Shown one piece after another: positions 20,447-63,517 of a stretch of 64,000 bases of DNA (the first letter of the stretch is position 1; each line of letters opens with the position of its first letter). The stretch is from positions 22,501,637 to 22,565,636 of the forward strand of contig NC_088654.1 in the NCBI RefSeq assembly GCF_964019385.1. Direction: 5' to 3'. This DNA is from Sycon ciliatum (lineage: Eukaryota > Porifera > Calcarea > Leucosolenida > Sycettidae). The translations under genes and the position numbers were made by a program. The notes beneath the pieces are model-generated. The model did not search any database. It was not told the origin of the DNA and saw only the letters and a program-made list of their open reading frames with translations.

Positions 20447-20570
20447 CAGAGCAGCAGCGGCAGCAGCAACACCAGCAGCAGCAGCAACAGCACCACCAGC
20501 AACAGCAGCGCCAGCAGCAGCTGCAGCAGCAGCGCCAGTAGCGCCAGCGCAAGCAGCAGCAGCAGTTGCA
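20447..20570 (+). repeat. CAG/GCA trinucleotide-rich tract
   Basis: Imperfect run of CAG triplets broken by CAA, CAC and CGC. One frame reads poly-Ala, another poly-Gln. It sits inside the 2.55-kb element just downstream of the zinc-finger-like fragment. Confidence 0.85.
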
Positions 20571-28000: not shown

Positions 28001-31000
28001 TTTCTCTAAAGAAATCGCCCAGGGCTGCTGAAAGCTCAAAAATAACCTATCTCACAGTTTGGGGCTTTTTACCAGTGAATCTTCACTTTGCGACTAAACT
28101 ATTCACAGCAGTGCCAAATTTTCTCGGTCACTGAATGTGGGTGCTAGCGCCCTACAAGCAAACCAAAAATCAAATCAATGCGACCACTCACAATGCAGCT
28201 GGGTCATGTTATAGAGAGGTACATTGAAATTCGAAGGTCAGCACAAATGGTCAAAATCCGACATTTTCTCACCTTTCTGCCCGTTCGCAGCTCAGAAACA
28301 GACAATGACCACCCTCATCTCCTTGTGTAGCTGGACATAGACAAGTGCACCAAGAAAAACAGCCACATTTCTCTAAAGAAATCGCCCAGGGCTGCTGAAA
28401 GCTGAAAAATAACCTATCTGACAGTTTGGGGCTTTTTACCCGTGAATCTTCACTTTGCGACTAAACTATTCACAGCAGTGCCAAATTTTCTCGGTCACTG
28501 AGTCTGGGTGCCAGCGCCCTACAAGCAATCCAAAAATCAAATCAATGCAACCTCTCACAATGCAGATGGGACATGTTATGGAGAAGTACATTGAAATTCA
28601 AAGGTCAACACAAATGGTCAAAATCCGTCATTTTCTCACCTTTCTGCCCGTTTGCAGCTCAAAAAATGACAATGACAACCCTCATCTCCTTGTGTAGCTG
28701 GACATAGACAAGTGCACCAAGAAAAACAGACACATCTTTCTAACGAAATCGCCCAGGGCTGCTGAAAGCTGAAAAATAACCTATCTCACAGTTTGGGGCT
28801 TTTTGCCCGTGAATCTTCACTTTGCGACTAAAATATTCACAGCAGTGTCAAATTTTCTGGGTCACTGCATGTGGGTGCAACCGCCCTACAAGCAAACCAA
28901 AAATCAAATCAATACGACCACTGGCATTACAGTTGGGTCATGTTATAAAGAGGCACATTGAAATTCAAAGGTCAGCACAAATGGTCAAAATCCGACATTT
29001 TCTCACCTTTCTGCCCGTTCGCACCTCAGAAACAGACAATGACCATCCTCATCTCCTTGTGTAGCTGGACATAGACAAGTGCACCAAGAAAAACAGCCAC
29101 ATTTCTCTAAAGAACTTGCCCAGGGCTGCTGAAACCAGAAAAATATCCAATCTCACAGTTTGGGGCTTTTTACCCGTGAATCTTCACTTTGCGACTAAAC
29201 TATTCACAGCAGTGCCAAATTTTCTGGGTCACTGAATGTGGGTGCCAGCGCCCTACAAGCAAACCAAAAATCAAATCAATGCGACCACTCACAATGCAGC
29301 TGGGTCATGTTATAGAGAGGTACATTGAAATTCGAAGGTCAGCACAAATGGTCAAAATCCGCCATTTTCTCACCTTTCTACCCGTTCGCAGCTCAGAACC
29401 AGACAATGACTATCCTCATCTCCTTGTGTAGCTGGACATAGACAAGTGCACCAAGAAATACAGCCACATTTCTCTAAAGAAATCGCCCAGGGCTGCTGAA
29501 AGCTCAAAAATACCCTATCTGACAGTTTGGGGCTTTTTACCCGTGAATCTTCACTTTGCGACTAAACTATTCACAGCACTGTAACATTTTCTGGGTCACT
29601 GCATGTGGGTGCCAGCGCCCTACAAGCAAACCAAACATCAAATCAATACCACCACTGACATTACAGTTGGGTCCTGTTATAGAGAGGCACATTGAAATTC
29701 AAAGGTCAGCACAAATGGTCAAAATCCGACATTTTCTCACCTTTCTGCCCGTTCGCACCTCAGAAACAGACAATGACCATCCTCATACCCTTGTGTAGCT
29801 GGACATAGACAACTGCACCAAGAAAAACGGCCACATTTCTCTAAAGAACTTGCCAAGGGCTGCTGAAACCAGAAAAATATCCAATCTCACAGTTTGGGGC
29901 TTTTTACCCGTGAATCTTCACTTTGCGACTAAACTATTCACAGCAGTGTCAAATTTACTGGGTCACTGCATGTGGGTGCGAGCACCCTACAAGCAGACCA
30001 AAAATCAAATCAATGCGACCAGAGACATTACAGTTGGGTCAAGTTATAGAGAGGTACATTGAAATTCAAAGGTCAGTACAAAAGGTCAAAATCCGACATT
30101 TTCTCACCTTTCTGCCCGTTCGCACCTCAGAAACAGACAATGACCATCCTCATCTCCTTTTGTAGCTGGACATAGACAAGTGCACCAAGAAAAACAGCCA
30201 CATTTCTCTAAAGAACTTGCCCAGGGCTGCTGAAAGCTCAAAAATAACCTATCTGACAGTTTGGGGCTTTTTACCCGTGAATCTTCACTTTGCGACTAAA
30301 CTATTCACAGCAGTGTCAAATTTTCTGGGTCACTGCATGTGGGTGCCAGCGCCCTACAAGCAAACCAAAAATCAAATCCATGCGACCACTGACATTACAG
30401 CTGGGTCATGTTATAGAGAGGTACATTGAAATTCAAAGGTCAGCACAAATGGTCAAAATCCGACATTTTCTCAGCTTTCTGCCCGTTCCCAGCTCAGAAA
30501 CAGACAAAGAGCATCCTCATCTCCTTGTGTAGCTGGACATAGACAAGTGCACCAAGAAAAACAGCCACATTTCTCTAAAGAAATCGCCCAGGGCTGCTGA
30601 AAGCTGAAAAATAACCTATCTGACAGTTTGGGGCTTTTTACCCGTGAATCTTCACTTTGCGACTAAACTATTCACAGCAGTGTCAAATTTTCTAGGTCAC
30701 TGTATGTGGGTGCCAGCGCCCTACAAGCAAACCAAAAATCAAATCAAAGCGACCACTGACATTACAGCTGGGTCATGTTATAGAGAGGTACATTGAAATT
30801 CAAAGGTCAGCACAAATGGTCAAAATCCCACATTTTCTCCCCTTTCTGCCCGTTCGCAGCTCAGAAACAGACAATGACTATCCTCATCTCCTTGTGTAGC
30901 TGGACATAGACAAGTGCACCAAGAAAAAGAGCCACATTTCTCTAAAGAAGTCGCCCAGGGCTGCTGAAAGCTGAAAAATAACCTATCTGACAGTTTGGGG

Positions 31001-34000
31001 CTTTTTACCCGTGAATCTTCACTTTGCGACTAAACTATTCACAGCAGTGCCAAATTTTCTGGGTCACTGAATGTGGGTGCCAGCGCCCTACAAGCAAACC
31101 AAAAATCAAATCAATGCGACCACTCACAATGCAGCTGGGTCATGTTATAGAGAGGTACATTGAAATTCAAAGGTCAGCACAAATGGTCAAAATCCGACAT
31201 TTTCTCAGCTTTCTGCCCGTTCCCAGCTCAGAAACAGACAAAGAGCATCCTCATCTCCTTGTGTAGCTGGACATAGACAAGTGCACCAAGAAAAACAGCC
31301 ACATTTCTCTAAAGAAATCGCCCAGGGCTGCTGAAAGCTGAAAAATAACCTATCTGACAGTTTGGGGCTTTTTACCCGTGAATCTTCACTTTGCGACTAA
31401 ACTATTCACAGCAGTGTCAAATTTTCTGGGTCACTGCATGTGGGTGCCAGCGCCCTACAAGCAAACCAAAAATCAAATCCATGCGACCACTGACATTACA
31501 GCTGGGTCATGTTATAGAGAGGTACATTGAAATTCAAAGGTCAGCACAAATGGTCAAAATCCGACATTTTCTCACCATTCTGCCCGTTCGCAGCTCAGAA
31601 ACAGACAATGACTATCCTCATCTCCTTGCGTAGCTGGACATAGACAAGTGCACCAAGAAAAAGAGCCACATTTCTCTAAAGAATTCGCCCAGGGCTGCTA
31701 AAAGCTGAAAAATAACCTATCTGACAGTTTGGGGCTTTTACCCGTGAATCTTCACTTTGCGACTAAACTATTCACAGCAGACCAACTATAAAAATAGAAA
31801 CTAGAAAAGTATCCAATCTCACAGTTTGGGGCTTTTTACCCGTGAATCTTCACTTTGCGACTAAACTATTCACAGCAGTGTCAAATTTTCGGGGTCACTG
31901 CATGTGGGTGCCAGCACCCTACAAGCAAACCAAAAATCAAATCAATGCGACCACTCACAATGCAGCTGGGTCATGTTATAGAGAGGTACATTGAAATTCA
32001 AAGGTCAGCACAAATGGTCAAAATCCCACATTTTCTCACCTTTCTGCCCGTTCGCAGCTCAGAAACAGACAATGACCATCCTCATATAATTGTGTAGCTA
32101 GACATAGACAACTGCACGAAGAAAAACGGCCACATTTCTCTAAAGAACTTGCCAAGGGCTGCTGAAACCAGAAAAATATCCAATCTCATAGTTTGGGGCT
32201 TTTTACCCGTGAATCTTCACTTTGCGACTAAACTATTCACAGCAGTGTCAAATTTTCTGGGTCACTGCATGTGGGTGCCAGCACCCTACAAGCAAACCAA
32301 AAATCAAATCAATACGACCACTGACATTACAGTTGGGTCATGTTATAGAGAGGTACATTGAAATTCAAAGGTCAGCACAAATGGTCAAAATCCCACATTT
32401 TCTCACCTTTCTGCCCGTTCGCAGCTCAAAAAATCACAATGACCACCCTCATCTCCTTGTGTACCTGAACATAGACAAGTGCACCAAGAAAAACAGCCAC
32501 ATTTCTCTAAAGAACTCGCCCTGGGCTGCTGAAAGCTGAAAAATAACCTATCTGACAGTTTGGGGCTTTTTACCCGTGAATCTTCACTTTGCGACTAAAC
32601 TATTCACAGCAGTGCCAAATTTTCTGGGTCTCTGAATGTGGGTGCCAGCGCCCTACAAGCAATCCAAAAATCAAATCAATGCGACCACTCACAATGCAGC
32701 TGGGTCATGTTATAGAGAGGTACATTGAAATTCAAAGGTCAGCACAAATGGTCAAAATCCGACATTTTCCCACCTTTCTGCCGGTTCGCAGCTCAAAAAA
32801 TGACAATGACCACCCTCATCTCCTTGTGTAGCTGGACATAGACAAGTGCACCAAGAAAACCAGACACATATCCCTAAAGAACTCGCCCAGGGCTGCTGAA
32901 AGCTGAAAAATAACCTATCTCACAGTTTGGGGCTTTTTACTCGTGAATCTTCACTTTGCGACTAAACTATTCACAGCAGTGTCAAATTTTCTGGGTCACT
33001 GAATGTGGGTGCCAGCGTCCTACAAGCAAACCAAAAATCAAATCAATGCGACCACTGACTTTACAGTTGGGTCATGTTATAGAGAGGAAAATTGAAATTC
33101 AAAGGTCAGCACAAATGGTCAAAATCCCACATTTTCTCACCTTTCTGCCCGTTCGCAGCTCAAAAAATGACAATGACCACCCTCATCTCCTTGTGTAGCT
33201 GGACGTAGACAAGTGCACCAAGAAAAACAGCCACATTTCTCTAAACAACTCGCCCCGGGCTGCTGAAAGCTGAAAATAACCTATCTGACAGTTTGGGGCT
33301 TTTTACCCGTGAATCTTCACTTTGCGACTAAACTATTCACAGCAGTGTTAAATTTTCTGGGTCACTGCATGTGGCTGCCAGCGCCCTACAAGCAAACCAA
33401 AAATCAAATCAATACCACCACTGACATTACAGTTGGGTCATGTTATAGAGAGGTACATTGAAATTCAAAGGTCAGCACAAATGGTCAAAATCCGACATTT
33501 TCTCACCTTTCTGCCCGTTCGCACCTCAGAAACAGACAATGAATATCCTCATCTCCTTGTGTAGCTGGACATAGACAAGTGCACCAAGAAAAACAGCCAC
33601 ATTTCTCTAAAGAATTTGCCCAGGGCTGCTGAAACCAGAAAAATATCCAATCTCACAGTTTGGGGCTTTTTACCTGTGAATCTTCACTTTGCGACTAAAC
33701 TACTCACAGCAGCGCCAAATTTTCTCAGTCATTGAATGTAGGTTCCAGCGCCCTACAAGAAATCCAAAAATCAAATCAATGCGACCACTCACAATGCAGC
33801 TGGGTCATGTTATAGAGAGGTACATTGAAATTCAAAGGTCAGCACAAATGGTCAAAATCCCACATTTTCTCACCTTTCTGCCCGTTCGCAGCTCAAAAAA
33901 TGACAATGACCACCCTCATCTCCTTGTGTAGCTGGACATAGACAAGTGCACCAAGAAAAACAGACACATATCTCTAAAGAACTCGCCCAGGGCTGCTGAA

Positions 34001-37000
34001 AGCTGAAAAATAACCTATCTCATAGTTTGGGGCTTTTTACCCGTGAATCTTCACTTGTCGACTAAACTATTCACAGCAGTGTCAAATTTTCTGGGTCACT
34101 GCATGTGGGTGCCAGCACCCTACAAGCAAACCAAAAATCAAATCAAGGCGACCACTGACATTACAGCTGGGTCATGTTATAGAGAGGTACATTGAAATTC
34201 AAAGGTCAGCACAAATGGTCAAAATCCGACATTTTCTCACCTTTCTGCCCGTTCGCAACTCAGAAAACGACAATGACCATCCTCATCTTCTTCTGTAGCT
34301 GGACATAGACAAGTGCACCAAGAAAAACAGCCACATTTCTCTAAAGAAATCGCCCAGGGCTGCTGAAAGCTCAAAAATAACCTATCTCACAGTTTGGGGC
34401 TTTTTACCCATGAATCTTCACTTTGCGACTAAAGTATTCACAACAGTGTCAAATTTTCTCGGTCACTGCATGTGGGTGCTAGCGCCCTACAAGCAAACCA
34501 AAAATCAAATCAATGCGACCACTGACATTACAGCTGGGTCATGTTATAGAGAGGTACATTGAAATTCAAAGGTCAGCACAAATGGTCAAAATCCCACATT
34601 TTCTCACCTTTCTGCCGGTTCGCAGCTCAAAAAATGACAATGACCACCCTCATCTCCTTGTGTAGCTGGACATAGACAAGTGCACCAAGAAAAACAGACA
34701 CATATCTCTAAAGAACTTGCCCAGGGCTGCTGAAAGCTGAAAAATATCCAATCTCACAGGTTGGGGCTTTTTACCCGTGAATCTTCACTTTGCGACTAAA
34801 CTATTCACAGCCGTGTCATATTTTCTGGGTCACTGCATGTGGGTGCCAGCACCCTACAAGCAGACAAAAAATCAAATCAATGCGACCACTCACAATGCAG
34901 CTGGGTCATGTTATAGAGAGGTACATCGAAATTCAAAGGTCAGCACAAATGGTCAAAATCCGACATTTTCTCACCTTTCTGCCCGTTCGCAGCTCAAAAA
35001 ATGACAATGACCACCCTCATCTCCTTGTGTAGCTGGACATAAACAAATGCACCAAGAGAAACAGACACATATCTCTAAAGAACTCGCCCAGGGCTGCTGA
35101 AAGCTGAAAAATAACCTATCTCACAGTTTGGGGCTTTTTACCCGTGAATCTTCACTTTGCGACTAAACTATTCACAGCAGTGCCAAATTTTCTAGGTCAC
35201 TCCATGTTGGTGCCAGCGCCCTACAAGCAAACCAAAAATCAAATCAATGCGTCCACTCACAATGCAGCTGGGTCATGTTATAGAGAGGTACATTGAAATT
35301 TGAAGGTCAGCACAAATGGTCAAAATCCGTCATTTTCTCACCTTTTTGCCCGTTCGCAACGCAGAAACCGACAATGACTATCTTCATCTCCTTGTTTAGC
35401 TGGACATTGACAAGTGCACCGAGAAAAATAGCCACATTTCTCGAAAGAAGTCGCCCAGGGCTGCTGAAAGCTGAAAAATAACCTATCTGATAGTTTGGGG
35501 CTTTTTACCCGTGAATCTTCACTTTGCGACTAAACTATTCACAGCAGTGTGAAATTTTCTGGGTCACTGCATGTGGGTGCCAGCGCCCTACAAGCAAACC
35601 AAAAATCAAATCAATACGACCACTGACATTATAGTTGGGTCATGTTATAGAGAGGTACATTGAAATTCAAAGGTCAGCACAAATGGTCAAAATCCCACAT
35701 TTTCTCACCTTTCTGCCGGTTCGCACCTCAGAAACAGACAATGACCATCCTCTTATCCTTGTGTAGCTGGACATAGACAAGTGGACGAAGAAAAACAGCC
35801 ACATTTCTCTAAAGAACTTGCCAAGGGCTGCTGAAACCAGAAAAATATCCAATCTCACAGTTTGGGGCTTTTTACCCGTGAATCTTCACTTTCCGACTAA
35901 ACTATTCAGAGCAGTGTCAAATTTTCAGGGTCACTGCATGTGGGTGCCAGCACCCTCCAAGCAGACCAAAAATCAAATCAATGCGACCACTGACATTACA
36001 GTTGGGTCATGTTATAGAGAGGTACATTGAAATTCAAAGGTCAGCACAAATGGTCAAAATCCCACATTTTCTCACCTTTCTGCCCGTTCGCACTTCAGAA
36101 ACAGACAATGACCATCCTCATCTTCTTGTGTAGCAGGACATAGACAAGTGCACCAAGAAAAACAGCCACATTTCTCTAAAGAAGTCGCCCAGGGCTGCTG
36201 AAAGCTGAAAATAACCTATCTGACAGTTTGGGGCTTTTTACCCGTGAATCTTCACTTTGCGACTAAACTATTCACAGCAGTGTCAAATTTTCTGGGTCAC
36301 TGCATGTGGGTGCCAGCGCCCTACAAGCAAACCAAAAATCAAATTAATACGACCACTGACATTACAGTTGGGTCATGGTATAGAGAGGTACATTGAAATT
36401 CAAAGGTCAGCACAAATGGTCAAAATCCGACATTTTCTCACCTTTCTGCCCGTTCGCACCTCAGAAACAGACAATGACCATCCTCATCTCCTTGTGTAGC
36501 TGGACATAGACAAGTGCACCAACAAAAACAGCCACATTTCTCTAAAGAAGTTGCCCAGGGCTGCTGAAACCAGAAAAATATCCAATCTCACAGTTTGGGG
36601 CTTTTACCCGTGAATCTTCACTTTGCGACTAAACTATTCACAGCAATGTCAAATTTTCTGGGTCACTGCATGTGGGTGCCAGCACCCTACAAGCAGACCA
36701 AAAATCAAATCAATGCGACCACTGCCATTACAGTTGGGTCATGTTATAGAGAGGTACATTGAAATTCAAAAGTCAGCACAAATGGTCAAAATCCCACATT
36801 TTCTCACCTTTCTGCCCGTTCGCACTTCAGAAACCGACAATGACCATCCTCATCTTCTTGTGTAGCTGGCCATAGACAAGTGCACCAAGAAAAACAGCCA
36901 CATTTGTCTAAAGAACTCGCCCAGGGCTGCTGAAAGCTGAAAACAACCTATCTCACCAATTTGGGCTTTTCACCCGTGGATCTTCGCTTTGCGACTAAAC

Positions 37001-37021
37001 TATTCACAGCAGTGCCAAATT
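22077..37021 (+). repeat. 367-bp satellite DNA array, block 2 (about 41 monomers)
   Basis: Continuation of the block 1 satellite after the 2.55-kb insertion, same orientation and same phase. Local duplications are visible. A set with CTATTAACAGCAGTACC occurs at 23,330 and again about 5 monomers later at 25,166. A set with CAAACATCAAATCAA occurs at 26,620 and again exactly 8 monomers later at 29,556, with a third relative at 16,730 in block 1. The unit at 30,290 translates the same as the one at 1,552. These cross-matches show that the two blocks were one array. The last unit breaks off at about 37,021 into the diverged satellite. Confidence 0.96.
31757..31854 (+). repeat. Truncated and rearranged satellite monomer (98 bp)
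   Basis: After TTCACAGCAG the monomer jumps to ACCAACTATAAAAATAGAAAC, which is not satellite sequence, and then rejoins at ATCCAATCTCACAG. About 270 bp of the unit are missing and roughly 20 bp of filler sit at the junction, as in end-joining repair. Confidence 0.8.
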
Positions 37022-39399
37022 TGGCTGCTGAACCCTGAAAATAGCCTATCTCCAAGCTTGGGGCTTTTTGCCCATACATCCGGACTTGGAACCCAAACCA
37101 GTTACAGCAGGGTCTAATCTCCTGGGGCACTGCCTACGAGTGCAAGCGGCCTACTAGCAAACCAAAAATCTAAGCAATTCCTGCACACATATTGCAGCTG
37201 GGCCCATTTACCCACAGGTACATTGAACTGAATAGTTGCGCACAAATGGGTTAAAAATTCACCATTTCCCACCTTTCCGACTATTCACAGCTGCAACATG
37301 GACAGTGACCACCGTGAATTCCTGCAATAGGCACACAAAGGGTAGAGCACAACAGAAATGACACACATTGTCATAAACAACCTGCCCAGGGTTGCTGAAC
37401 CCTGAAAATAACCTATCTTCAAGTTTGGGGCTTTTTGCCTGTATATCCGGACTTGGAACTCAAACCAGCTACAGCAGGGTCAAATTTCCTGGGACACTGC
37501 CTACGAGTACATGCAAACCAACAAAAACCCACTAGCAAACCAAAAATCTAAGTAATTCCTGCATCCGTATTGCAGCTGGGCTCATTTACCCACAGTTACA
37601 TTGGAATGAACAGGTGCACGCAAATGGTTGAAATTCACCATTTCTCACCTTTCCGACTATTCACAGCTGCAACATGGACAGTGACCATCGTGAATTCCTG
37701 CAATAGGCACACAAAGGATATTGCACAACCAAAATGACACACATTTCTCACCTTTCCGACTATTCACAGCTGCAACATGGACAGTGACCACCGTGAATTA
37801 ATAGGCACACAAAGGATATTGCACAACCAAAATGACACACATTGTCATAAACGACCTGCCCAGGGCTGCTCAAACCTGAAAATAGCCTACCGTATTATCT
37901 CTAATATAAGCACGGTCCTTTATTTTTTCAATGTACCTCCGCCCCGTGCTATTAATGGAGACGTTCCTTTATTGGAGACTGTTCCATTATTATTTCAATC
38001 TCATTTCAGAGGCATGTTGCCATGCCAAATTCATGTATGACACACACATTTCAGGTTTTTTTTCGCCGGTACAGATAATGAATTTACACAGTGTGCTTAT
38101 AATGGAGACTGAGCACTTTATTTTTTGAATGCCGCCCCAATGTGTTCTATTATTGGAGACGTGCTATTATTAGAGACTGTGCTTATATCAGAGATAATAC
38201 GGTATCTCCAAGTTGGTCAAAAATTCACCATTTCTCACCTTTCCGAATATTCACAGCTGCAACATGGACAGTGACCGTCGTGAATTCCTGCAATAGGCAC
38301 ACAAAGTGTAGAGCACAACAGAAATGACACACATTGCCATAAACGACTTGCCCAGGGCTGCTGAACGCTGAAAATAGCCTATCTCCAAGTTTGGGGCTTT
38401 TTGCCCGTACATCCGGACTTGGAACTCAGGCCAGTTACAGCAGGGTCAAATGTCCTGGGGCACTGCCTATGAGTGCAAGCGGCCTGCTAGCAAACCAAAA
38501 ATCTAATCAATTTCTGCATCTATATTGCCGCTGGGCCCGTTTACCCACAGGTGCATTGAAATGAACAGGTGCACACACAATGGTCAAAAATTCACCATTT
38601 CTCACCATTGCGAATATTCACAGCTGTAACATGGACAGTGACCACCGTGAATTCCTGCAATAGGCACACAAAGGGTAGAGCACAACGGAAATGACACACA
38701 TTGTCATAAACAACCAGGGCTGCTGAACCCTGAAAATAGCCTATTTCCAAGTTTGGGACTTTTTGCCTATACATCCGGACTTGGAACCCAAACCAGTTAC
38801 AACAGGGTCTAATCTCCTGGGGCACTGCCTACGAGTGCAAGCGGCCTACTAGCAAACCAAAACGTAAGCACTACCCACACCCATATTGCAGCTGGGCCCA
38901 TTTACCCACAGGCACATTGAAATGAAAAATCGCGCACAAATGGTCAAAAATTCACCATTTCTCACCTTTCCGACTATTCACAGCTGTAACATGGACAGTG
39001 ACCACCGTGAATTCCTGCAATAGGCACACAAAGGGTAGAGCACAACAGAAATGACACACATTGTCATAAACAACCCGCCCAAGGCTGCTGAACCCTGAGA
39101 ATAACCTATCTCCAAGCTTGGGGCTTTTTGCCCATACATCCGGACTTGGAACCCAAACCAGTTACAGCAGGGTCTAATCATCTGGGGCACTGCCTACGAG
39201 TGCAAGCGGCCTACTAGCAAACCAAACATCTAAGCAATTCCTGCACACATATCGCAGCAGGGCCCATTTACCCACAGGTACATTGAAATGAACAGCTGCG
39301 CACAAATGGTCAAAAAATCACCATTTCTCACCTTTCCGACTATTCACAGCTGCAACATGGACAGTGACCACCGTGAATTCCTGCAATAGGCACACAAAG
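37022..39399 (+). repeat. Diverged relative of the satellite, about 360-bp period
   Basis: Units share the framework of the 367-bp satellite (GCCCAGGGCTGCTGAA, TTTGGGGCTTTTTGCCC, CTAGCAAACCAAAAATC, GCACAAATGGTCAAAA, CACCTTTC) but differ strongly in the rest. They have their own hallmarks, such as CATCCGGACTTGG and GTGAATTCCTGCAATAGG. Period boxes at 38,349, 38,706 and 39,069 give spacings of about 357-363 bp. A segment of about 100 bp (TCTCACCTTTCCGACTATTC to ACATTGTCATA) is duplicated around 37,640-37,850. Copies vary more from one another than in the main array, so this looks like an older, inactive edge of the satellite. Confidence 0.88.
37890..38202. mobile_element. 313-bp MITE with TA target duplication (Tc1/mariner-type)
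   Basis: The left end is CCGTATTATCTCTAATATAA and the right end is its imperfect reverse complement, each flanked by TA. Neighbouring satellite copies read GAAAATAGCCTATCTCCAAG, which matches the flanks with one TA removed. The insertion and its TA duplication are therefore directly proven. The inside contains repeats of ATTATTGGAGAC and no coding frame. Confidence 0.85.
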
Positions 39400-40363
39400 C
39401 GTCAGGCGAAATAGCACGTCATAGTACATTTGAGATCAGCGGGAAGAAGATGACGACGTCCACTAATTTAGTATCTGTCCACACGAAACTGCTGTGTGTG
39501 ACTCTGTGTGTCTGCTATGATAATCTTCTGTGGTTCCATGCCTAGCATGTACGTCTGAAGCATCCTGCAAAGTTTGAATGACGTAGGTTGAGCGATCGAT
39601 CCGCGAAACATACTTTTTGAAATTCTCTTCATAGTATATCTTCCACCATTGAAATTTCGAATTTCTTCAAAAAAAGTGCTGAGAGGGGTGGCTTGCAACC
39701 TCGATATGGCTTGTTCCAGGCAGGCTTTGGAGCCATCTTCTGTTGAAGTAGTGGCGGGGATCTGCCCTGCAACTGCTACAACAAAAAATGATTCGATCTG
39801 AGAAAGGGTGAGACCGCGAATCTCGGTTGAATATTGAGTATTTCAAGCCTTTTCACGACGAAGATGGAGTTCTTTTTGGAGATGGACGTCGCGGCAAAGG
39901 ACATGGTGTCCGACTTCTGGCGTCTGGTGAAGCCAGGGATCATTTGTCCAGTCAGGTCGGCAGCCTAACCATCGGTAAGCTTGTGTTTGGATCCCGTTCT
40001 GCTCGATGTGGTAGATCACAAACAATTTGATATCGCACAAATTGATCTCAGCATCGTGCGTACGGTATTTTGTATTCAGAAAATCCCAAAGTGTCTGTGT
40101 GTGGCCGTCCTATGCCACGAGAAACTCCAATCAGGCTCCTATGTCCTCTGCCTTCATGATTGAATGTCCACTTCGTTTGAACAAAGAACACAACAATCGA
40201 GGACGGCTTTGCAATGAAAAATACAGCTATACTGGAGCTGAAAAAAAGAAGAAAAAAACGTGCTCAGGATGAGACTCGAGTACACGCATACTCTCCCAGC
40301 AGGTGAAACGCAAATTTTTGTGAAAAATGCGTGTCGCCGACTGACCAGTAATTTCGCCTGACG
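39400..40363 (+). mobile_element. 964-bp inverted-repeat element, left copy
   Basis: The ends are GTCAGGCGAAAT and its reverse complement ATTTCGCCTGAC. It lies inside a diverged satellite monomer between CACACAAAG and GGTAGAGCAC, which are contiguous in other monomers. No base is lost and no target duplication is clear. It contains no recognisable protein. A short frame starting at the ATG near 39,864 (MEFFLEMDVAAKDM, 34 codons in all) is noted but unsupported. Confidence 0.78.
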
Positions 40364-40470
40364 GGTAGAGCACAACAGAAATGACACACATTGTCATCAA
40401 CAACCTGCCCAGGGCTGCTGAACCCTGAAAATAACATATTTCCAAGTTTGGGCTTTTTGCCTGTATATCC
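40364..40470 (+). repeat. 107-bp satellite spacer at the centre of the palindrome
   Basis: The spacer is ordinary diverged-satellite sequence (GGTAGAGCACAACAG to CTGTATATCC). It continues the monomer from the left flank of the left copy and leads into the right flank of the right copy. The two elements therefore landed as separate insertions 107 bp apart in one monomer. Confidence 0.85.
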
Positions 40471-41438
40471 CGTCAGGCGAAATTACTGGTCAGTCGGCGT
40501 CACGCAATTTTCACAAAAATTTGCGTTTCACCTGCGGGGAGAGTATGCGTGTACTCGAGTCTCATCCTGAGCAGGTTTTTTTCTCCGTTTTTTCAGCTCC
40601 AGTATAGCTGTATTTTTCATTGCAAAGCCGTCCTCGATTGTTGTGTTCGTTGTTCAAACGAAGTGGACATTCAATCATGAAGGCAGAGGACATAGGAGCC
40701 TGATTGGAGTTTCTCGTGGCATAGGACGGCCACACACAGACACTTTGGGATTTTCTGAATATAAAATACCGTACGCACGATGCTGAGATCAATTTGTGCG
40801 ATATCAAATTGTTTGTGATCTACCACATCGAGCAGAACGGGATCCAAACACAAGCTTACCGACGGTTAGGCTGCCGACCTGACTGGAAAAATGATCCCTG
40901 GCTTCACCAGACGCCAGAAGTCGGACACCATGTCCTTTGCCGCGACGTCCATCTCCAAAAAGAACTCCATCTTCGTCGTGAAAAGGCTTGAAATACTCAA
41001 TATTCAACCGAGATTCGCGGTCTCACCCTTTCTCAGATCGAATCATTTTTTGTTGTAGCAGTTGCAGGGCAGTTCCCCGCCACTACTTCAACAGAAGATG
41101 GCTCCAAACCATGCCTGGAACAAGCCATATCGAGGTTGCAAGCCACCCATCTCAGCACTTTTTTTGAAGAAATTCAAAATTTCAATGGTGGAAGATATAC
41201 TATGGAGAGAATTTCAAAAAGTATGTTTCGCGGAGCGATCGCTCAACCTACGTCATTCAAACTTTGCAGGATGGTTCAGACGCACATGCTTGGCATGGAA
41301 CCACAGAAGATGATATCATAGCTGACACACAGAGTCACACACACAGCAGATTCGTGTGCACAGATACTAAATTAGTGGACGTCGTCATCTTCTTCCCGCT
41401 GATCTCAAATGTACTATGACGTGCTATTTCGCCTGACG
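40471..41438 (-). mobile_element. 968-bp inverted-repeat element, right copy (inverted)
   Basis: Reverse-complement copy of the element at 39,400-40,363, differing by scattered substitutions and 1-2 base indels (by eye about 97% identical). It has the same GTCAGGCGAAAT ends. The flanks TATATCC and CGGACTTGG match an uninterrupted monomer apart from one extra C. Together the pair forms a palindrome of about 2 kb. Confidence 0.8.
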
Positions 41439-55061: not shown

Positions 55062-55133
55062 TTATTTCGGCATTGCATCTAGAATGGAGCGAACTTCCAC
55101 CAGCAAAGCGCTGTATGCAAACTTGAACTGATC
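55062..55133 (-). CDS. Phosphatase terminal exon and stop codon
   Basis: Acceptor GTTATCATGTGTAG. The frame reads DQFKFAYSALLVEVRSILDA, then MPK and TAA. DQFKF...AL matches the DQYxFxxxAL helix that always follows MVQTE. The plus-strand 73-codon frame across this exon is only its shadow. Confidence 0.88.
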   Translation of the reverse strand, partial: DQFKFAYSALLVEVRSILDAMPK

Positions 55134-58100
55134 CTACACATGATAACACATGACACAGTCATGTGACACAGGCACACAACACGACACAGGCATATGACAC
55201 AGGCACATAAAGTGAATTTAGTAAAAGTAAATTATCGCCATATGTGTGTGTGGGAAACTACCAACTGAAGTCCTGACATGTGCAGGTCATGCCCAGCTAA
55301 CCACTTTTGTCAGTTGAACCCCTGCTCGCCACATTTCCTTTTGGTCACGTGTCCCGGCTGCAAGTGGGTAGTTTCACGGCCACAGATTGTTCCCTTGGTC
55401 ATGACAAGAGAATGCCATGATTTGTGAGCCCATCGCTGGTGCTAGCTAGCAGAATGGTGCTCAAAACGGTAAAAGAAACCAGATTGGGTACGGGTTGAGA
55501 TGTGACTCATCTATGAGCGCTGCAAAAAGACTGGATGAAAAATATTAAAAAAACTGCTGAATGCTGAGCGCTCGATCACGGCGGATGCAGACCAATGTCA
55601 TGTTTAAATGGCAACCGCATTATCACCATGGCGATAAACATCACTGATTATAAAGTACAGCAGCAGCAGCAGCGGAAAAAGGGTCCTAATTCCTAATTCT
55701 ACCTTAGCAGTACTAGTGAAGAGTTGGACACAAGCACAGTTCAGTGTATTTACTATGCTCACCTCAGTTTGAACCATGTGCATGCGCTGGTCTCTCAAAT
55801 GTTCCACACAAGCAGCCATGTCAATCTCCTTGACAAGATCTAAAACGAGCAAGGAGAGTACGTCAGACAACAACTTGCCACAATGTCCACGGAACTTGAG
55901 CAGGGTTTGTTGAGCAGGACTTGCTGCCGCAGCTGCGACGGTAGTCTCACTAATATGACATTACACATCGTATATTACACTGTTGTGAAGATGGTCTTAC
56001 TATCTTCATCGATAGCTGTTGTTTATGCTGAAATTGATTGCTGATTAGATATTGTCTTACTGCACTCAGAAAGTCATGGTCAATGCTGAGTATGCAATGC
56101 AGACGACAAAGCACTTGACATGAACCCTGACAAGACGCAGTTCTTGCTCCTTTGCCACCTACTGTAAAACGACAAACTTTCGCGGCGGCTAAATTTAGCG
56201 TTTTGGAAAACTGGACCAGTTAGCGGCGATTAATTTTAGCGATTTTTACCTTCCACCGAAAATCAAAGAATTTTATTTTACGAAACCTCGGAGTGCTGGG
56301 CGCAGAGTGCATGAAGAATGAGAGAAGAAATCAAAGAATGAAAGAAGGAATCAAGGAATGTAAGAAGGAATCAAGGCATCAAAGAGAACCATAAGGTAAG
56401 TACTAGTACTGAGAGAAATGATGGCACGTTCGAAGAGGGATCATCGGAAGACTTTCTCTTCGAACTGCTGAGCCACTGCGATACTCATCGCGATAAAATT
56501 CAGAAGACTTCTTCGAGCAGTACAACACTAAAATCTACGCAACAGCAAGCTGGCCAAACGCTCCAAGAAGTTCAACAACACTTTCCACAACACTGAGACA
56601 TTCTCCAGTCGATCGTTTTATTCTCTTCTGGTTCAAGTCGCCGTACTCCAACGACAACTAATGTCTGTTACTTGCAAGCCTGGTGAGTGGTGTTGGTACG
56701 TAACCCGTCGTTGCAACAGCTGCGTCCTTTGGTTGGACATAGCCGGCCGTGCAAGCATCGATCAGCGCTGTGAATGTACAGTCAGTGCAGTGAGTGATAC
56801 ATGCGCGCGCACGTAGACCTACTCGTACTGTACAGATCTGTTGCAAAACAATCGATCATCGACGCATCGATCGCGTAGTACACATATTCGCGTGTCAAAC
56901 TTTCGCGATTCGACCCTGCTCGCGAAAGTCGCGAAAGTTAATCGCTCGCGAAAGTTTGTCGTTTTACAGTATTCCAAACCATGCCACGTTCAGCGAGGCC
57001 CTAGTTATTTTTCAAGGTAAAAAGGTCAGCAAAAATCCCACTTTCTCTTCCATTCAATGCAAGCAGGTAAACATGGCCTCACTGAATGCGCGGTATTTAG
57101 TGCTCACGTACCAATTTGATTCAATGTATCATCACCGTCTTCAAATCTGAAGTGCCTCGCACCAGGTCCAAACAGTCACGGGTAAGATAGTTTACCCCCC
57201 CCCCCCCTCCCCCTCCTCTCCCAGTTTGCTGGATATATACTTCAACGACAATCGACCCTAATTCCAATTGCTTATATGGATCAGCTTTTGTGTCATTTCA
57301 GTGGCGAACTTTTGAGCGCCTCAGCCGCGCTCTTTCCGCTTGCGTTACCAATTTCTCCACAAATAAAGTGAACAGTTTTTTTCTCATGGTGTTACACTTG
57401 TCTCACTTTGGTATATTCAAGATTTCAAGACAATTGAAGGAGCCATCCACCAACATGACAAAGCTCAAAGACAGGTGTAAATTCCCTTAGCGTACTTCTC
57501 CTTGTGTCGTGACTGAGACTCATCAGGCAGAAACAACTTTAGCACCATCAGCCCTTGGGAGCGATTTTAAAGCTAGTTCTTTTTCGCCCAAGCCATGGAA
57601 GGGCTTCCCGGTAGCTCCTCTGAGTCAACACGAGTGTCGCACATGAAGTTGAGCGTCCTCCTAGTGCTTATTTCACTTCCACGCGTCCATTCCCATACAA
57701 ACTGAATGTGACACGGGCTTCGCTTGTTCACTAGCAATTAAAAAAAATCGCACGTGATCCGAAAACGTGACCGTTGGTCCGTCCTTCACAACGCTCTATC
57801 CACTCTAGTCAAGAGTACATAACCCCCCAGAGTGTGCAACTCCCACATACCCTGCTGTCCCGACAGAATTTCAAGTTGACGTCAATATTTATGACGCAAT
57901 GCTCCTTGCACCAGTGATTTACAACATGTGTACGGGTGTCAACGCATCACACGTTTTTTTTTCTTTGCAATAATTTGTACAGGATTGATCGGCTTCGGTC
58001 AACCACAGGTTCCGGATTCGTCTGATAATCCGTGTACGTACGGTGCGCATTGCATCATCAAAATGACGTCAACTTGAAATTCTGTCGGGACAGCACCCAT

Positions 58101-60577
58101 AGTGGAATTGCACACTCTGGGGGGTTATGTACTCTTGCTCTAGTACCGTCACAGGCAGAAAATTACCTGAGGCAGTTTTCCAAAAGGTGTGGAATTTAGT
58201 GAGGGGGTGGATCAACTGTACTTCATTCTACATGTCACTTACTTTCCGACAATCTCATCAGAAGAATATCTATCAAGATGTAGCAGCCAGCTCTTCCTAC
58301 ACCAGCACTGCAATAAACAATACAATACAGACGGTAGTTCAGTACAAGTATAATGTACTAGAGCATAGAGACAACACAGAGACAATAACCATCGGATGGC
58401 AATGAAAAAAATTGTTGTGCTATTATGCCTATAGGAAAAGAAGACCAAGGAGCTACAAGTTATGCTACAATACAGTCGTCCCTCTCTAATCCGGCACTTG
58501 TTTATCCAGCACCCTTGCAAACCAGCACACTTTCTGGCAAAGCGGATTTTTTCAGTTCATTTTCTACGCTTTAATCCGGCACTTGAATTCCGCCTCCGGC
58601 AGCGATTTTCTGCAACAAATCACTCAAACTGTACATAATTTGATTTTCTAATCCAGCAGTTGTACATCGCATACCGTACCAGTGCCAATATCCTATGCCA
58701 ATGCATAGGATTTGCATAGATATTCCCAAGTGTATGTTATAGACATGGCATGTTACAGACATGCATTCCACAAACTTGTGACAAAGTACTTGGATTGACA
58801 CAGAAAATCCCTACATTTTGACGTACGACACAAACATGTACGTTACTAGGTGAGCCGGGTTGGAGGACAGGATTTGATAATCCAGCACCCTTGTTTATCC
58901 GGCAGAAAATGCCGTTGCAAAAGGTGCCGGATTAGAGAGGGACGACTGTATTCACTAACACCACCAGTCTCCACCCGAGTCTAATTATTATGGCTATGGT
59001 CGGCATTCGTTGCAACAGTATAATTATGTTTGCGATGTAGGCGACAACAAAATATTACGAGACGGTGGTAGCGACTTCAGCGATGATTTCATAGGAAAGG
59101 TGCTGCCAACACCGGAGCTGGTGCTTTTCCGCTGACTGGCTTGACACTTGACTGACTCACGACTGCCAGCCAGAGCACACGAGTGGTGCAGGCTTGCCGA
59201 GTCGAAGGTTTGATGGACTTCTCGTGTGCTCTGGATGGCTGTCGTGAGGCAGTCAAGAATCAAGCCAAGGCGGCAGGAAAAGCACGAGCTCCGGTGTCTG
59301 GAGCACCTTTCCTACAAACCGAATTTGATCCAGTGCTACATTACTAGAACCCATAACACAAACAAAGCAGAGGTATTGACCAAAGCCAACACAGCTCCTC
59401 ACAAAAAAACAGAGGTATTGACCAAAGCCAACACAGCTCATCACAACCAAAACAGAGGTATTGGCCAAAGTCAACACAGCTCCTCACACACAAAACAGAG
59501 ATATCGGCCGAAGTCAACACAGCTCCTCACAAACAAAACAGAGATATCGGCCGAAGCCAACACAGCTCATCACAACCAAAACAGAGGTATTGGCCAAAGC
59601 CAACACAGCTCCTCACACACAAAAACAGAGATATCGGCCAAAGTCAACACAGCTCCCCACAAACAAAACAGAGGTATTGGCCAAAGCCAACACAGCTCCC
59701 CACAAACAAAACAGAGATATCGGCCGAAGTCAACACAGCTCCTCACAAACAAAACAGAGATATCGGCCAAAGTCAACACAGCTCCTCACAAACAAAACAG
59801 AGATATCGGCCGAAGTCAACACAGCTCATCACAAACAAAACAGAGATATCGGCTGAAGTCAACACAGCTCCTCACAAACAAAACAGAGATATCGGCCGAA
59901 GCCAACACAGCTCATCACAAACAAAACAGAGGTATTGGCCAAAGCCAACACAGCTCCTCACAAACAAAACAGATATATCGGCCGAAGTCAACACAGCTCA
60001 TCACAAACAAAACAGAGATATCGGCCGAAGTCAACACAGCTCCTCACAAACAAAACAGAGATACTGGCCGAAGTCAACACAGCTCATCACAAACAAAACA
60101 GAGATATCGGCCGAAGCCAACACAGCTCCTCACAAACAAAACAGAGATATCGGCCGAATCCAACACAGCTCCTCACAAACAAAACAAAGATATCGGCCGA
60201 AGTCAACACAGCTCCTCACAAATAAAACAGAGATATCGGCCGAAGCCAACACAGCTCCTCACAAACAAAACAGAGATATCGGCCAAAGTCAACACAGCTC
60301 CTCACAAATGATGTCGACTGTACTGGAACTGGTGGATGAATGTAGACATGTAGACAACGTAGTTTCTAGCCTACAATGTGTTGAATGATAGGATCAAACA
60401 CAGCACGCTGAACACTGGTGTCTGCTGGCTGTATACTTACTTGTCATGGACAATGATGGGTGCACTGACATCAGAATAACTTTTCTTTACTTTCCTACAG
60501 GAGAACACATACCCATACACCCACATGCACGCGCGCATGCACAGACGTGCGCAAACATGAACGTGCGCATGCACGGA

Positions 60578-60615
<38 letters not shown>

Positions 60616-61605
60616 AACACACACACACACACACACAAACGACAATGATGCAATTGGATTAAAAAATTCAGCGGTATTTAAGGGGTCGTCGCAAAAAAAA
60701 TTGTCATCCCTGAACCGAACATCGCTCATTTCGTACTCTCACTCCTTCCCATCCTCCAAAATGAACATAGCTTGATATGCTGGATGACGAGAAAACTGCA
60801 TGCTTTGTGTGGTATCCTGTGCAGATGTTCATGAGCATGTGCATGCTAAACACTAACAGTCGTGTTATTGCTGACTATACAGCTGCTCTTTCTTTGGATT
60901 ACTGTAAGCTGCCAACATCTTGCTCTTGCCCCTAGACTAGCCATTACAACCGTAGCTAGAGAGCTGTCTCTGTTGTTGCCATTCAGCTGTTCCTCTTGCT
61001 GCTTCCATGCACCATGGCATTAGCAGCAATACTTCAATACGATACTCTTTCCTAACGTTTGCACAGCTACCTGCTTGCTCTCCGCGCTGAGTCCATCGCT
61101 AAGCTTGCTTTGATAATTATAATATACTGCTCGCTGCATTTATCTCACACTTCAGTCTTCTCTTTTCAGCACAAGCAAGCCTTGCCGTTTTCACTTCCGT
61201 TTGATTGGAGTAAGTTCTCAAGAGTTCTCTATGTACCCCCCCCCCCCCTCCCCCTATGTACCCCCCCCCCTCCCCCTACCTCCCCACAATAAACACAAAC
61301 TATGCCTCTCCCCATACATACAAATTATACTTGAAATAAAAGAGTTTTGGCAGGTTACAGCATCATTTCAGAGGTGGCAGAATTAGCTCAGCAACATACC
61401 TCCTGAAGTCAAGCAATGCATGGGTTGTTGTTGCAATAGTTGGTACAGCAACATGAGTCCAGGATAGGAACTGATATTGAGTCACTGTGCGGCTCATCTT
61501 CGTCTAAACACACACCATGTATATACACGCAAACACACGCACACACATAAGCACGCATGCACGCGCGTGCGCGCGCACACACACACACACACATACACAC
61601 ACACA

Positions 61606-61649
<44 letters not shown>

Positions 61650-63291
61650 GCAGAACATGAGAGAAAAATTGATAAAGAAAATTTAACAGTGAAGGAAGTG
61701 AAGATATTAGGTAAAGATATTAGCAGGCCAAACAAAGAACAAAGGAAACCATTGCTACTCGGCAACGTGGGCTGGGTCCATTTTGCCAAAAAGAGGGAAA
61801 TGGTAATTGATAAAATATTTTAAAAAAATTCTTCGAAGTACTTTGCTCCGTATTTCTGCATTTCAGGTAATTCTTCAGCAGGAAAACATATGCATGCATG
61901 TACCGCTGTCCATACAGGCGTGCATCTATTATCACAGCTACGTTTCTCCAATCCCATTGGTAATCCACTCAACCACTCAACCACTGACCTTACGGGATGG
62001 TGGCAAGGAAATGGGGGGGGGGGGGGGGAGTCAGAGAGGGAGGAGAGTAGGAGGACGGGGGAGGGAGGGGGGGGGGGGTAGAGGGATGAGTGGGAGTAGA
62101 GGGAGGAGTGGGGGGGGGGGGGAGAGTAGAGGGAGGAGTGGGGGGGGGGGAGAGCAGAGGGAGGAGTGGGGGGGGGGGGGGAGTAGAGGGAGGAGTGTGA
62201 GGGGGGGGGGGGGGGAGAGAGTAGAAGACGGTAGCCGCCTATCTGAAATATGCGCCACATCATTTCAGGGGTTTTAGGCGGATGTTTTTCAACTGGGTGA
62301 TATTATACGGCTCGCACACTACTAAGCGCCTCAGCCAGTATTGCCGGAAGGACGGTATGTTTGTATTCTAAGCATTTGAGACACGTAGAGAGGAACCCTA
62401 GTATAGTGCAAACAGTGGTGTGTAGTGTGCATGCTATTACCGGTCTTACCTTCAAATTGACTAAATAGAAACTACGGACACAATAGTCATCTGACATGAC
62501 GTGCTCAGAAACTAGTTGTACCTTTACAAGGAAAGCACATGGCAATGGCACATGTATACACATACACATACATATACACACACACATACACACACACATA
62601 AAGGAAAAAGGAAAATAAATAAGCTAGCACCATAGCGTAACATGTACCTGCCTGTCAGTTAGAGCTTTGAGTTACGCATCTAAAGTTTCTTTTTTCAAAA
62701 CTAACTAAATTGGGAACGAGAGGGCTTGAAAGCCCAGGAGCCCTCGCTATGGTAAAAATAAAATAAATAAAAAAGCATAGCGAGGGTTCCTGGGCTGTCA
62801 AGCCCTCTTGTCAGTGGATCCGCAGGATCAGCGCCTCAGCGCGATTTGGCGCTCCAAGACCGGCACCATGAGCGTCTAACTCAAAATATCTGCCATTTCA
62901 ACAAATTGTATCGCAAATCGCTCAATTTATTTTACCAGGAAGCTAGTTGTATGCATTGGTATACGACTAGTGTGATTTCTATAACCAACCTCGAACATAT
63001 GATACACTTGCTGTCCGTGCTTGGGCCAATAACGGTGACACTGACTCTGTTAGGCACACACAGAAAACAAGCCCCCCCCCCCACACACACACATACACAC
63101 ACATACACACACACACACACGTGCACACAGCGTACACATGTGCATACACGCATACAATAGTCAGTCACACAGCAACGATGCAACATTGTCTCTCTTCGCT
63201 GTCACTCACTTGCTCTCTCTTTCTCATACACACACACACACACTCTGTACCTCTCTCACTCACTCACTCACTCACTCACTCACTCACTCAC

Positions 63292-63332
<41 letters not shown>

Positions 63333-63517
63333 CACACACACACACACTCTCACTCTCACTTACTCCACCCACCATGACCGAAATTAACAGGTTTGCTTGT
63401 CGCGTTTGGGAGGAATTCCAAGATGAGTGTTGCAAGATAGACATGAAAACTCACCATGCCACCTTCCGTTAGTTTGGTGAGCATAACGATGATGGTGGAA
63501 TTCATCTCCCATACCAT
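55062..63517 (-). CDS. Receptor-type protein tyrosine phosphatase, 3' part (degenerate D2 domain, 8 exons)
   Basis: The exons, in transcript order on the minus strand, are 63,517-63,455, 63,046-62,990, 62,521-62,450, 61,503-61,400, 60,494-60,441, 58,307-58,243, 55,839-55,763 and 55,133-55,062. Their lengths are 63, 57, 72, 104, 54, 65, 77 and 72, which sum to 564 nt = 187 codons plus TAA. Every junction is GT-AG and the phases agree. The peptide follows the tyrosine phosphatase fold in order: MVWEMNSTIIVMLTKL, QCHRYWP, VTQYQFLSW, APIIVHDNAGVGRAG and LRDQRMHMVQTEDQF. In active enzymes the WPD loop supplies the general acid and HCSAGVGRTG the nucleophilic Cys. Here they are WTH and HDNAGVGR, so the domain should be catalytically dead, as in D2 domains of receptor phosphatases. 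Cys-to-Asp is known in D2 of vertebrate PTPRG and PTPRZ. The C-terminal position supports D2. D1, the membrane segment and the ectodomain must lie beyond 64,000. A single-domain pseudophosphatase is the alternative. Confidence 0.9.
55763..55839 (-). CDS. Phosphatase exon with LRDQRMHMVQTE (Q-loop)
   Basis: 77 nt. Acceptor CTCCTTGCTCGTTTTAG, donor GAG then GTGAGC. The run MAACVEHLRDQRMHMVQTE matches the conserved LRxQRxxMVQT segment of receptor phosphatases. The Q-loop glutamine is retained. Confidence 0.9.
56162..56969. mobile_element. 808-bp MITE with TA target duplication, intronic
   Basis: CTGTAAAACGACAAACTTTC begins the element and its perfect reverse complement ends it, flanked by TA on both sides (about 23-bp terminal repeats, CTGTAAAACG to TTTCGCG). 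Subterminal CGCGAAAGT words recur near the right end. Tandem 20-bp words GAAAGAAGGAATCAAGGAAT occur at about 56,318-56,390. No transposase. It sits in the intron before the exon at 55,763. Confidence 0.85.
57196..57218 (+). repeat. Poly-C tract
   Basis: A run of 13 or more C followed by TCCCCCTCC, intronic. Confidence 0.9.
57810..58137. mobile_element. 328-bp MITE with long inverted ends and 7-bp target duplication, intronic
   Basis: CAAGAGTACATAACCCCCCA at the left pairs with TGGGGGGTTATGTACTCTTG at the right, and the match continues through CTGTCCCGACAGAATTTCAAGTTGACGTCA for about 70-75 bp with small differences. CTCTAGT flanks both sides (57,803-57,809; 58,138-58,144). A 7-8 bp duplication suggests a hAT-like group, though the ends are not typical. 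Confidence 0.85.
58243..58307 (-). CDS. Phosphatase exon with AGVGRAG (P-loop remainder)
   Basis: 65 nt. Acceptor TTGTTTATTGCAG, donor GGAAA then GTAAGT. It completes an Asn codon with the previous exon and reads AGVGRAGCYILIDILLMRL. Gly and Arg of the P-loop are kept, while Thr after Arg is Ala. Confidence 0.88.
58473..58948. mobile_element. 476-bp pogo/Tigger-like MITE, intronic
   Basis: CAGTCGTCCCTCTCTAATCC opens the element and its perfect complement closes it, flanked by TA. CAGT(C/T)G.CCCT and ATCCGGCA words are typical of pogo-type ends. Internal copies of AATCCGGCACTTG and ATCCAGCACCCTTG repeat the end motif. Non-coding. It lies in the intron upstream of the AGVGRAG exon. Confidence 0.88.
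59092..59314. repeat. Foldback repeat with about 92-bp arms, intronic
   Basis: The left arm 59,092-59,183 (TAGGAAAGGTGCTGCC to CAGAGCACACGAG) pairs with the right arm 59,221-59,314 with scattered mismatches. The loop is 37 bp. No clear target duplication. Confidence 0.8.
59370..60308 (+). repeat. 43-bp minisatellite, about 21-22 copies, intronic
   Basis: Units read GAGATATCGGCCGAAGTCAA, then CACAGCTCCTCACAAACAAA and ACA. Two main variants are GAGATATCGGCCGAAG and GAGGTATTGGCCAAAG, with CTCCTCAC or CTCATCAC later in the unit. Because 43 is not a multiple of 3 and no frame contains a stop, a long open frame (361 codons from 59,226) crosses the whole array. It lies antisense inside a phosphatase intron and is not a gene. 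Confidence 0.95.
60441..60494 (-). CDS. Phosphatase exon with APIIVHD
   Basis: 54 nt. Acceptor GTGTTCTCCTGTAG, donor ACAA then GTAAGT. It encodes KVKKSYSDVSAPIIVHD plus two bases of the next codon. The residue after the His of the signature is Asp instead of the catalytic Cys, encoded by GAC within one exon, so it is not a splice-site artefact. Confidence 0.88.
60582..60640. repeat. CA microsatellite
   Basis: (CA)n interrupted by CATACAAA. It reads as a UG repeat in the phosphatase pre-mRNA, about 90 nt before the acceptor of the exon at 60,441-60,494. Confidence 0.95.
61232..61285 (+). repeat. Poly-C tract with duplicated TATGTACCCCC unit
   Basis: Two runs of C separated by TCCCCCTATGTAC, intronic. 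Confidence 0.9.
61400..61503 (-). CDS. Phosphatase exon with the altered WPD loop (WTHVAVP)
   Basis: 104 nt, phase 0 in and 2 out. It contains RTVTQYQFLSW followed by THVAVP where active enzymes have PDHGVP, so the general-acid Asp is lost. The acceptor GTGTGTGTTTAG sits directly after a TG repeat and has a weak pyrimidine tract. The donor is GGAG then GTATGT. Confidence 0.87.
61512..61648. repeat. CA microsatellite next to an acceptor
   Basis: Imperfect then pure CA repeat. On the minus strand it is a TG tract ending within about 10 nt of the acceptor of the WTH exon. Confidence 0.95.
62007..62220 (+). repeat. Poly-G and polypurine minisatellite
   Basis: Runs of 10-17 G separated by AGAGGGAGGAGTG and GAGAGTA words, about 35-40 bp per unit. 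It has potential for G-quadruplex on the plus strand or triplex DNA, and lies within an intron. Confidence 0.95.
62450..62521 (-). CDS. Phosphatase exon with VQLVSEHV...VRSFYL
   Basis: Acceptor GCTTTCCTTGTAAAG, donor AAG then GTAAGA, 24 codons, phase 0-0. The pattern VxLVSE..., then Y.VRSFYLVN, matches the strands between YWP and the Q(F/Y)xF-SW motif. Confidence 0.87.
62548..62600. repeat. CA/TA-rich microsatellite
   Basis: ACACATACACATACATATAC and similar, 30-80 nt upstream (minus strand) of the acceptor at 62,521. Confidence 0.9.
62719..62808. repeat. Long hairpin, 33-bp arms around an AT loop
   Basis: AGAGGGCTTGAAAGCCCAGG, then AGCCCTCGCTATG, pairs with CATAGCGAGGG, then TTCCTGGGCTGTCAAGCCCT and CT, with two or three mismatches. 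The loop is A/T-rich, about 24 bases. Confidence 0.85.
62990..63046 (-). CDS. Phosphatase exon with QCHRYWP
   Basis: Acceptor TGTGTGCCTAACAG, donor GAG then GTTGGT (weaker at +3), 19 codons, phase 0-0. It holds SQCHRYWPKHGQQVYHMFE. The YWP core is conserved throughout tyrosine phosphatases. Confidence 0.88.
63081..63122. repeat. CA microsatellite after a C run
   Basis: CACACACACACATACACACA and similar, about 35 nt upstream (minus strand) of the YWP-exon acceptor. Confidence 0.95.
63220..63372. repeat. Compound CA, CACT and CT microsatellite
   Basis: (CA)n, then (CACT)n of about 9 units, (CT)n and (CA)n again, within the intron between the first two visible exons. Confidence 0.95.
63455..63517 (-). 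CDS. Phosphatase exon with MVWE...IIVMLT
   Basis: The acceptor is CCTTTCAACAAATAG and the donor ATG then GTGAGT. It has 21 codons, phase 0 on both sides. It carries MVWEMNSTIIVMLTKLTEGG, the conserved helix-strand that in active domains follows DFWR and precedes the KCxxYWP strand. The previous exon, expected to hold the phosphotyrosine loop and DFWR, is not in the 480 bp left in the window. Confidence 0.88.

Follow-up and report, generated by a model that had tools for sequence, protein, structure and literature searches.

The closest described relatives of the gene analysed here are the receptor pseudophosphatases of the R8 family, IA-2 (PTPRN, also called ICA512) and phogrin (PTPRN2, also called IA-2beta). 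IA-2 is a dense-core secretory vesicle protein and a type 1 diabetes autoantigen. R8 proteins are described as having no tyrosine phosphatase activity and as acting in neuroendocrine secretion (passages of PMC11802530, PMC2638020 and PMC7320164), and as carrying a single PTP domain (passages of PMC11802530 and PMC2638020). IDA-1 of Caenorhabditis elegans is described as related to IA-2 and IA-2beta and as residing on dense-core vesicles (a passage of PMC2657203). Ptprn and Ptprn2 are also listed among the genes for which orthologues were sought in placozoans (part of PMC10580291). Searches of the open-licence literature for PTPRN with sponge and dense core vesicle, or for PTP with Porifera and PTPRN, found no paper, although absence from print is not claimed.

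The window, by which we mean the whole stretch of 64,000 nucleotides that was analysed, carries eight short exons on its minus strand. Very probably they are the 3′-terminal exons of an animal gene for a receptor pseudophosphatase of the R8 type (IA-2/PTPRN, phogrin/PTPRN2). The assignment is based on the C-terminal stretch of the PTP domain; the N-terminal part of that domain, the membrane segment and the ectodomain were not recognized in the readable right flank. Judged from its sequence, the gene adds one more member to this already described family, and its active site is changed in an unusual way.

Exon structure and phosphatase homology

The first-pass annotation had proposed that eight minus-strand segments bounded by GT and AG join in phase and end with a stop, and the segments, splice borders, phases and stop were all re-found. 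In 5′ to 3′ order on that strand, with tblastn scores, the exons are:

Exon a, 63455..63517, minus strand: 63 nt, phase 0, reading MVWEMNSTIIVMLTKLTEGGM; 32.3 bits with PTPRN, 37.4 bits with LAR D2
Exon b, 62990..63046, minus strand: 57 nt, phase 0, reading SQCHRYWPKHGQQVYHMFE; 33.9 bits with PTPRN
Exon c, 62450..62521, minus strand: 72 nt, phase 0, reading VQLVSEHVMSDDYCVRSFYLVNLK, with the R8-like VSEH..VRSFYL; 35.0 bits with PTPRN
Exon d, 61400..61503, minus strand: 104 nt, phase 0, degenerate WPD loop and 3-residue insertion; 37.0 bits with PTPRN
Exon e, 60441..60494, minus strand: 54 nt, phase 2, stopping within the PTP loop (..IIVHD/N); 24.3 bits with PTPRN
Exon f, 58243..58307, minus strand: 65 nt, phase 2, remaining PTP loop AGVGRAG; 35.8 bits with PTPRN, 41.2 bits with LAR D1
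Exon g, 55763..55839, minus strand: 77 nt, phase 1, reading LVKEIDMAACVEHLRDQRMHMVQTE, Q-loop Gln kept; 32.7 bits with PTPRN, 36.6 bits with PTPRN2
Exon h, 55062..55133, minus strand: 72 nt, phase 0, stop codon TAA, reading DQFKFAYSALLVEVRSILDAMPK*, an R8-like C-terminus; 28.1 bits with PTPRN

When joined, the exons amount to 564 nt, or 187 codons plus TAA, with intron phases 0,0,0,2,2,1,0. An AG acceptor precedes all eight, and GT opens each of the seven introns. The donors from exon a to exon g are, in order, gtgagt, gttggt, gtaaga, gtatgt, gtaagt, gtaagt and gtgagc, that of exon b (gttggt) being furthest from the usual GTRAGT. The introns measure 408-2403 nt and have a G+C content of 0.42-0.50, and each exon segment occurs exactly once on the minus strand between 63517 and 55062.

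The Pfam search that the first-pass annotation had proposed as a check matched the joined peptide to Y_phosphatase with E=1.1e-47 (163.1 bits, cut-off 20.9), peptide residues 1-175 covering model positions 61-233 of 234; a second model, PTP-SAK, stayed under its own cut-off. A tblastn search with PTPRN, which uses no splicing model, gave eight minus-strand matches, one per exon and in the correct order. The noise level for tblastn was set at 26.6 bits: the region from 54.5 to 64 kb was dinucleotide-shuffled 100 times, and this was the highest score reached by any of six PTP queries. Seven of the eight exons exceed this maximum, and exon e (54 nt) lies under it at 24.3 bits. In none of 20,000 mononucleotide shuffles was the joined frame open. 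A chance assembly of GT-AG segments is ruled out by the Pfam match, the exon-wise tblastn results and the frame shuffles.

The claim that long plus-strand frames in the interval are repeats or antisense holds for both frames of at least 150 aa. The 361-aa frame (59226-60311) corresponds to a minisatellite with a 43-bp unit within intron 5, of which approximately 22 copies lie at 59357-60308, and the 156-aa frame (61807-62277) overlaps a G-run region in intron 3. Two MITE-like elements with inverted-repeat ends were also recognized by eye in introns, at approximately 56161-56971 and 58473-58949 (ACTGTAAAACGACAAA and CAGTCGTCCCTCTCTAATC). A real gene built of exons of 54-104 nt, invisible in a list of long open reading frames, is recoverable by reading the raw sequence.

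The degenerate active site

Two changes lie in the catalytic motifs of the predicted protein:

61453..61461, minus strand: WTH (TGG ACT CAT), which replaces the WPD motif, with the general-acid Asp changed to His
60443..60445, minus strand: GAC (Asp), at the catalytic Cys position of the PTP loop

The PTP loop reads HDNAGVGRAG. An active classical PTP has a CX5R loop with the catalytic Cys and the general-acid Asp of WPD; here the first position is Asp, with the loop Arg kept, and the second motif is WTH. The longer WPDxGxP motif reads WTHVAVP and is followed by a 3-residue insertion relative to all six PTP domains compared. The Q-loop Gln (in VQTEDQF) is kept. These changes (Cys to Asp, WPD to WTH) are predicted to be inactivating changes in the catalytic motifs, as is characteristic of R8 proteins. 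On the basis of HDNAGVGRAG together with WTH, the PTP domain is predicted to be almost surely inactive, and with Asp instead of Cys the phospho-cysteine intermediate of PTPs could not form. Two PTPs of the same genome (L001 and L002) keep HCSAGVGRTG, and thus the change from Cys to Asp is not genome-wide.

The vertebrate proteins differ from the window gene at these positions. IA-2 has HCSDGAGRTG and WPA, and phogrin has HCSDGAGRSG and WYD, in place of the HDNAGVGRAG, WTH and insertion after the WPD position described above. The residue at C+2 of the PTP loop is Ala in the window gene, and the Asp that vertebrates carry there is absent. An inactivating role of Asp at C+2 is addressed in part of PMC2661844. 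Because IA-2 and phogrin keep the Cys and carry Asp at C+2, both they and the window domain look dead by sequence, via different residues. In the predicted peptide, the loss of Cys is a more radical change than that in IA-2, which keeps this residue.

Flanking DNA, related copies and gene integrity

The first-pass annotation expected D1, the membrane segment and the ectodomain to lie to the right of the window. A single PTP domain is the rule in R8, which makes a D1 upstream of the fragment unlikely. In the readable portion of the 60,000-base right flank (5,000 bases of which read N), tblastn and motif searches gave nothing over noise, and no exon was recognized for the N-terminal part of the PTP domain, the juxtamembrane region or the IA-2 ectodomain. 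In the part of the window downstream of the gene, tblastn gave no match to a PTP that rose over the shuffle level. Pfam searches of eight of the 45 listed right-flank open reading frames returned nothing bearing on the PTP gene. An acidic open exon candidate with AG/GT borders and no Pfam match lies upstream on the strand of the gene (L010 4050-4361, minus strand; LNDEKLFGVENVDRN...DEDDDEEVEEDD), and might belong to the PTP gene or to another. Vertebrate R8 proteins also carry RESP18 in their luminal ectodomain. The IA-2 ectodomain model PF11548 had no matches in the genome in an exon-by-exon search, a procedure that is weak for split or diverged domains.

The genome searched, in which the window lies at C13:22501637-22565636, comprises 538,412,230 bases in 313 contigs. 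Comparison of the peptide with this genome gave 18 matches from 42 candidates, only the best of which were scored. Seven of them fall on exons of the window itself (every one except e) and show only 61-86% identity, as the alignments extend beyond the exon boundaries; the remaining 11 are 28-46% identical. No close paralogue is present among the 18 matches, and in this respect the window gene can be likened by description to IDA-1, a single factor in the worm. An origin by recent duplication, or by decay of a copy of some other gene, was rejected, there being no more similar source among the same matches. No relatives of the peptide were confirmed in viral_contigs or genome_contigs. Three PTP domains elsewhere in the genome (L001, C10:3437613; L002, C3:41748801; L003, C4:37701091) are nearly whole in single open frames, spanning profile position 1-3 to 233 of 234; in contrast to the window gene, no intron interrupts the domain.

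Several of these observations could be accommodated if the fragment were a pseudogene, either decayed or an incomplete copy, lying close to a satellite array, since the catalytic residues are lost, no upstream part was found in the readable flank, and a 367-bp satellite occupies approximately 35 kb of the same window. We consider this improbable. All eight exons are open, every splice site is AG or GT and there is no frameshift; the R8-diagnostic residues are kept; no more similar parent copy was found among the genome matches; and the loss of catalysis is given as the rule in R8 proteins (part of PMC11802530).

The satellite itself fills most of positions 1-37745, with approximately 53 tandem copies at 1-19527 and approximately 40 at 22077-37022, and the stretch ends at 37745 in a diverged 376-bp pair. 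The ratio of observed to expected CpG is 0.46 over 1-37750 vs 0.67-0.90 in three other stretches. As a guess, this may be a centromeric or other heterochromatic array; a 29-mer of the satellite had no matches in genome_contigs, nor did a 27-mer in viral_contigs. An island at 19528-22076 inside the satellite carries open reading frames, one of which (20108-20377, plus strand) resembles zf-C17orf113 below threshold (E=0.05) and is perhaps a transposon-derived zinc-finger protein. This was the one match, and a sub-threshold one, obtained with Pfam for ten of the many listed window frames. An inverted repeat at 39520-41314 has 846-bp arms that are 98% complementary and 103 bp apart, and one open reading frame in its left arm had no Pfam match. 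Rfam and tRNA scans of the window found nothing.

Other features were observed in the course of the genome searches. An open reading frame at L014 568-1329, plus strand, has a marginal GIY-YIG match (5.4e-4, below cut-off) and may, as a guess, be a Penelope-like retroelement. The genome is rich in SRCR domains (108 matches). Among the 15 matches listed for the Antennapedia homeodomain, the best has 49% identity and none goes beyond 50%; in Hox-bearing animals far higher identity to this homeodomain is expected. Taken together, the SRCR and homeodomain results make a sponge the probable host, and a ctenophore a less likely one. Nine homeodomain matches, 44-50% identical to Antennapedia and several of equal score, fall within 0.2 Mb at C1:64401823-64600837 and perhaps represent a local homeobox amplification.

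Placement in the R8 family and possible role

The joined peptide shares with PTPRN, a pseudophosphatase, the segments LVSEH..VRSFYL, LLDFRRKV and KEID.AA..EH.RDQR as well as the C-terminus. In a phmmer search of the PDB (best 60 of 244 matches), entries 2i1y (209.4 bits) and 2qep (205.8 bits) each matched in one stretch; the next entry to match in this way scored 121.9 bits. We take 2i1y to be human PTPRN, its label in the PDB table being only ‘Receptor-type tyrosine-protein phosphatase’. Entry 2qep is PTPRN2 according to part of PMC2638020.

The first places in the raw phmmer lists are held by LAR and PTPRS entries (232-241 bits), and these bear on the alternative, implied by the first-pass annotation, that the fragment belongs to a tandem receptor phosphatase of the LAR/PTPRS (R2A) type and is its membrane-distal D2, preceded by an active D1. 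The D2 domains of LAR, PTPRS and PTPRG are likewise PTP domains with little or no activity, and D2 domains are called inactive or nearly so in part of PMC2638020. The high rank of these entries arises because two domains are summed; per domain, none goes beyond 120.6 bits in the four alignments shown, compared with 209.4 bits for 2i1y. When the query is cut to exons c-h, 2i1y reaches 147.1 bits in a single stretch, and the two PTPRS domains reach 80.2 and 67.1. Queries limited to exons f-h, or to the final 118 residues (part of d to h), place two-domain PTPRS/LAR entries first, again with two domains summed. The C-terminus of the peptide aligns through the final residue of 2i1y, which also argues against an R2A D2.

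Alignment of seven sequences (the window peptide, PTPRN, PTPRN2, and D1 and D2 of both LAR and PTPRS) gave 101/183 identical residues with PTPRN and 99/178 with PTPRN2. This is 55% for R8, whereas the four LAR/PTPRS domains share 65-74 of 170-171 residues with the peptide (38-44%). Thirty-five columns are common to the peptide and both R8 proteins and absent from all four LAR/PTPRS domains; six are common to the peptide and all four of those domains and found in neither R8 protein, a stricter criterion than that used for the 35. In a tree that included only two R8 sequences, together with four PTP loci of this genome out of eight that were retrieved, the peptide grouped with PTPRN and PTPRN2 at 96 ultrafast bootstrap and 0.983 in FastTree. 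It branches outside the PTPRN/PTPRN2 pair, as expected of an invertebrate single copy, a weak point with two R8 sequences only.

Six of the eight exons score best in tblastn with an R8 query, and the other two count against R8: exon a alone prefers LAR D2 (27 residues at 66.7% identity; 37.4 vs 32.3 bits with PTPRN) and exon f alone prefers LAR D1 (41.2 vs 35.8 bits). By phmmer, identity and tree, the peptide as a whole is nonetheless closer to R8 than to the other PTP domains compared, and neither identity nor tree groups it with R2A D1 or D2 domains, so that we give the R2A reading only a slight probability. A relationship to the D2 domains of PTPRG and PTPRZ (R5), which also have Asp at the Cys position and thus the same kind of substitution, is still more remote, as two-domain PTPRG (2nlk) scores 124.1 bits vs approximately 100 for D1 entries (best 60 of 244), which means that its D2 adds only approximately 24 bits, and PTPRZ likewise scores 130.1 vs 104.8, compared with 209.4 for 2i1y.

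The first-pass reading of the fragment as the end of a receptor-type PTP domain therefore stands as regards its C-terminal 187 residues, their splicing and the stop, and is amended in that the catalytic residues are lost and the type is R8.

By analogy with IA-2 and phogrin, the most likely product of the window gene is a granule-membrane protein with a PTP-like binding module. As in the R8 family, this protein would cross the membrane once and probably reside in secretory granules. The PTP-like domain would serve as a non-catalytic protein-binding module that, for example, binds signalling partners or pairs with active receptor PTPs, and such a module may help to control granule number and release.

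It is possible, if rather doubtful, that a nerveless animal, a sponge, has here one R8 pseudophosphatase in which catalysis was lost by its own route (Cys to Asp, WPD to WTH) and by another in vertebrates (C+2 Ala to Asp, plus WPD Asp to Ala in IA-2), that the R8 cytoplasmic module is older than neurons and than the granule-luminal ectodomain, and that the loss was selected more than once; the greater age relative to the ectodomain is suggested because no IA-2 ectodomain was detectable. In a sponge host, the gene would place the R8 module in an animal that lacks neurons, and it would offer a natural test of whether the dead phosphatase fold alone is maintained by selection.
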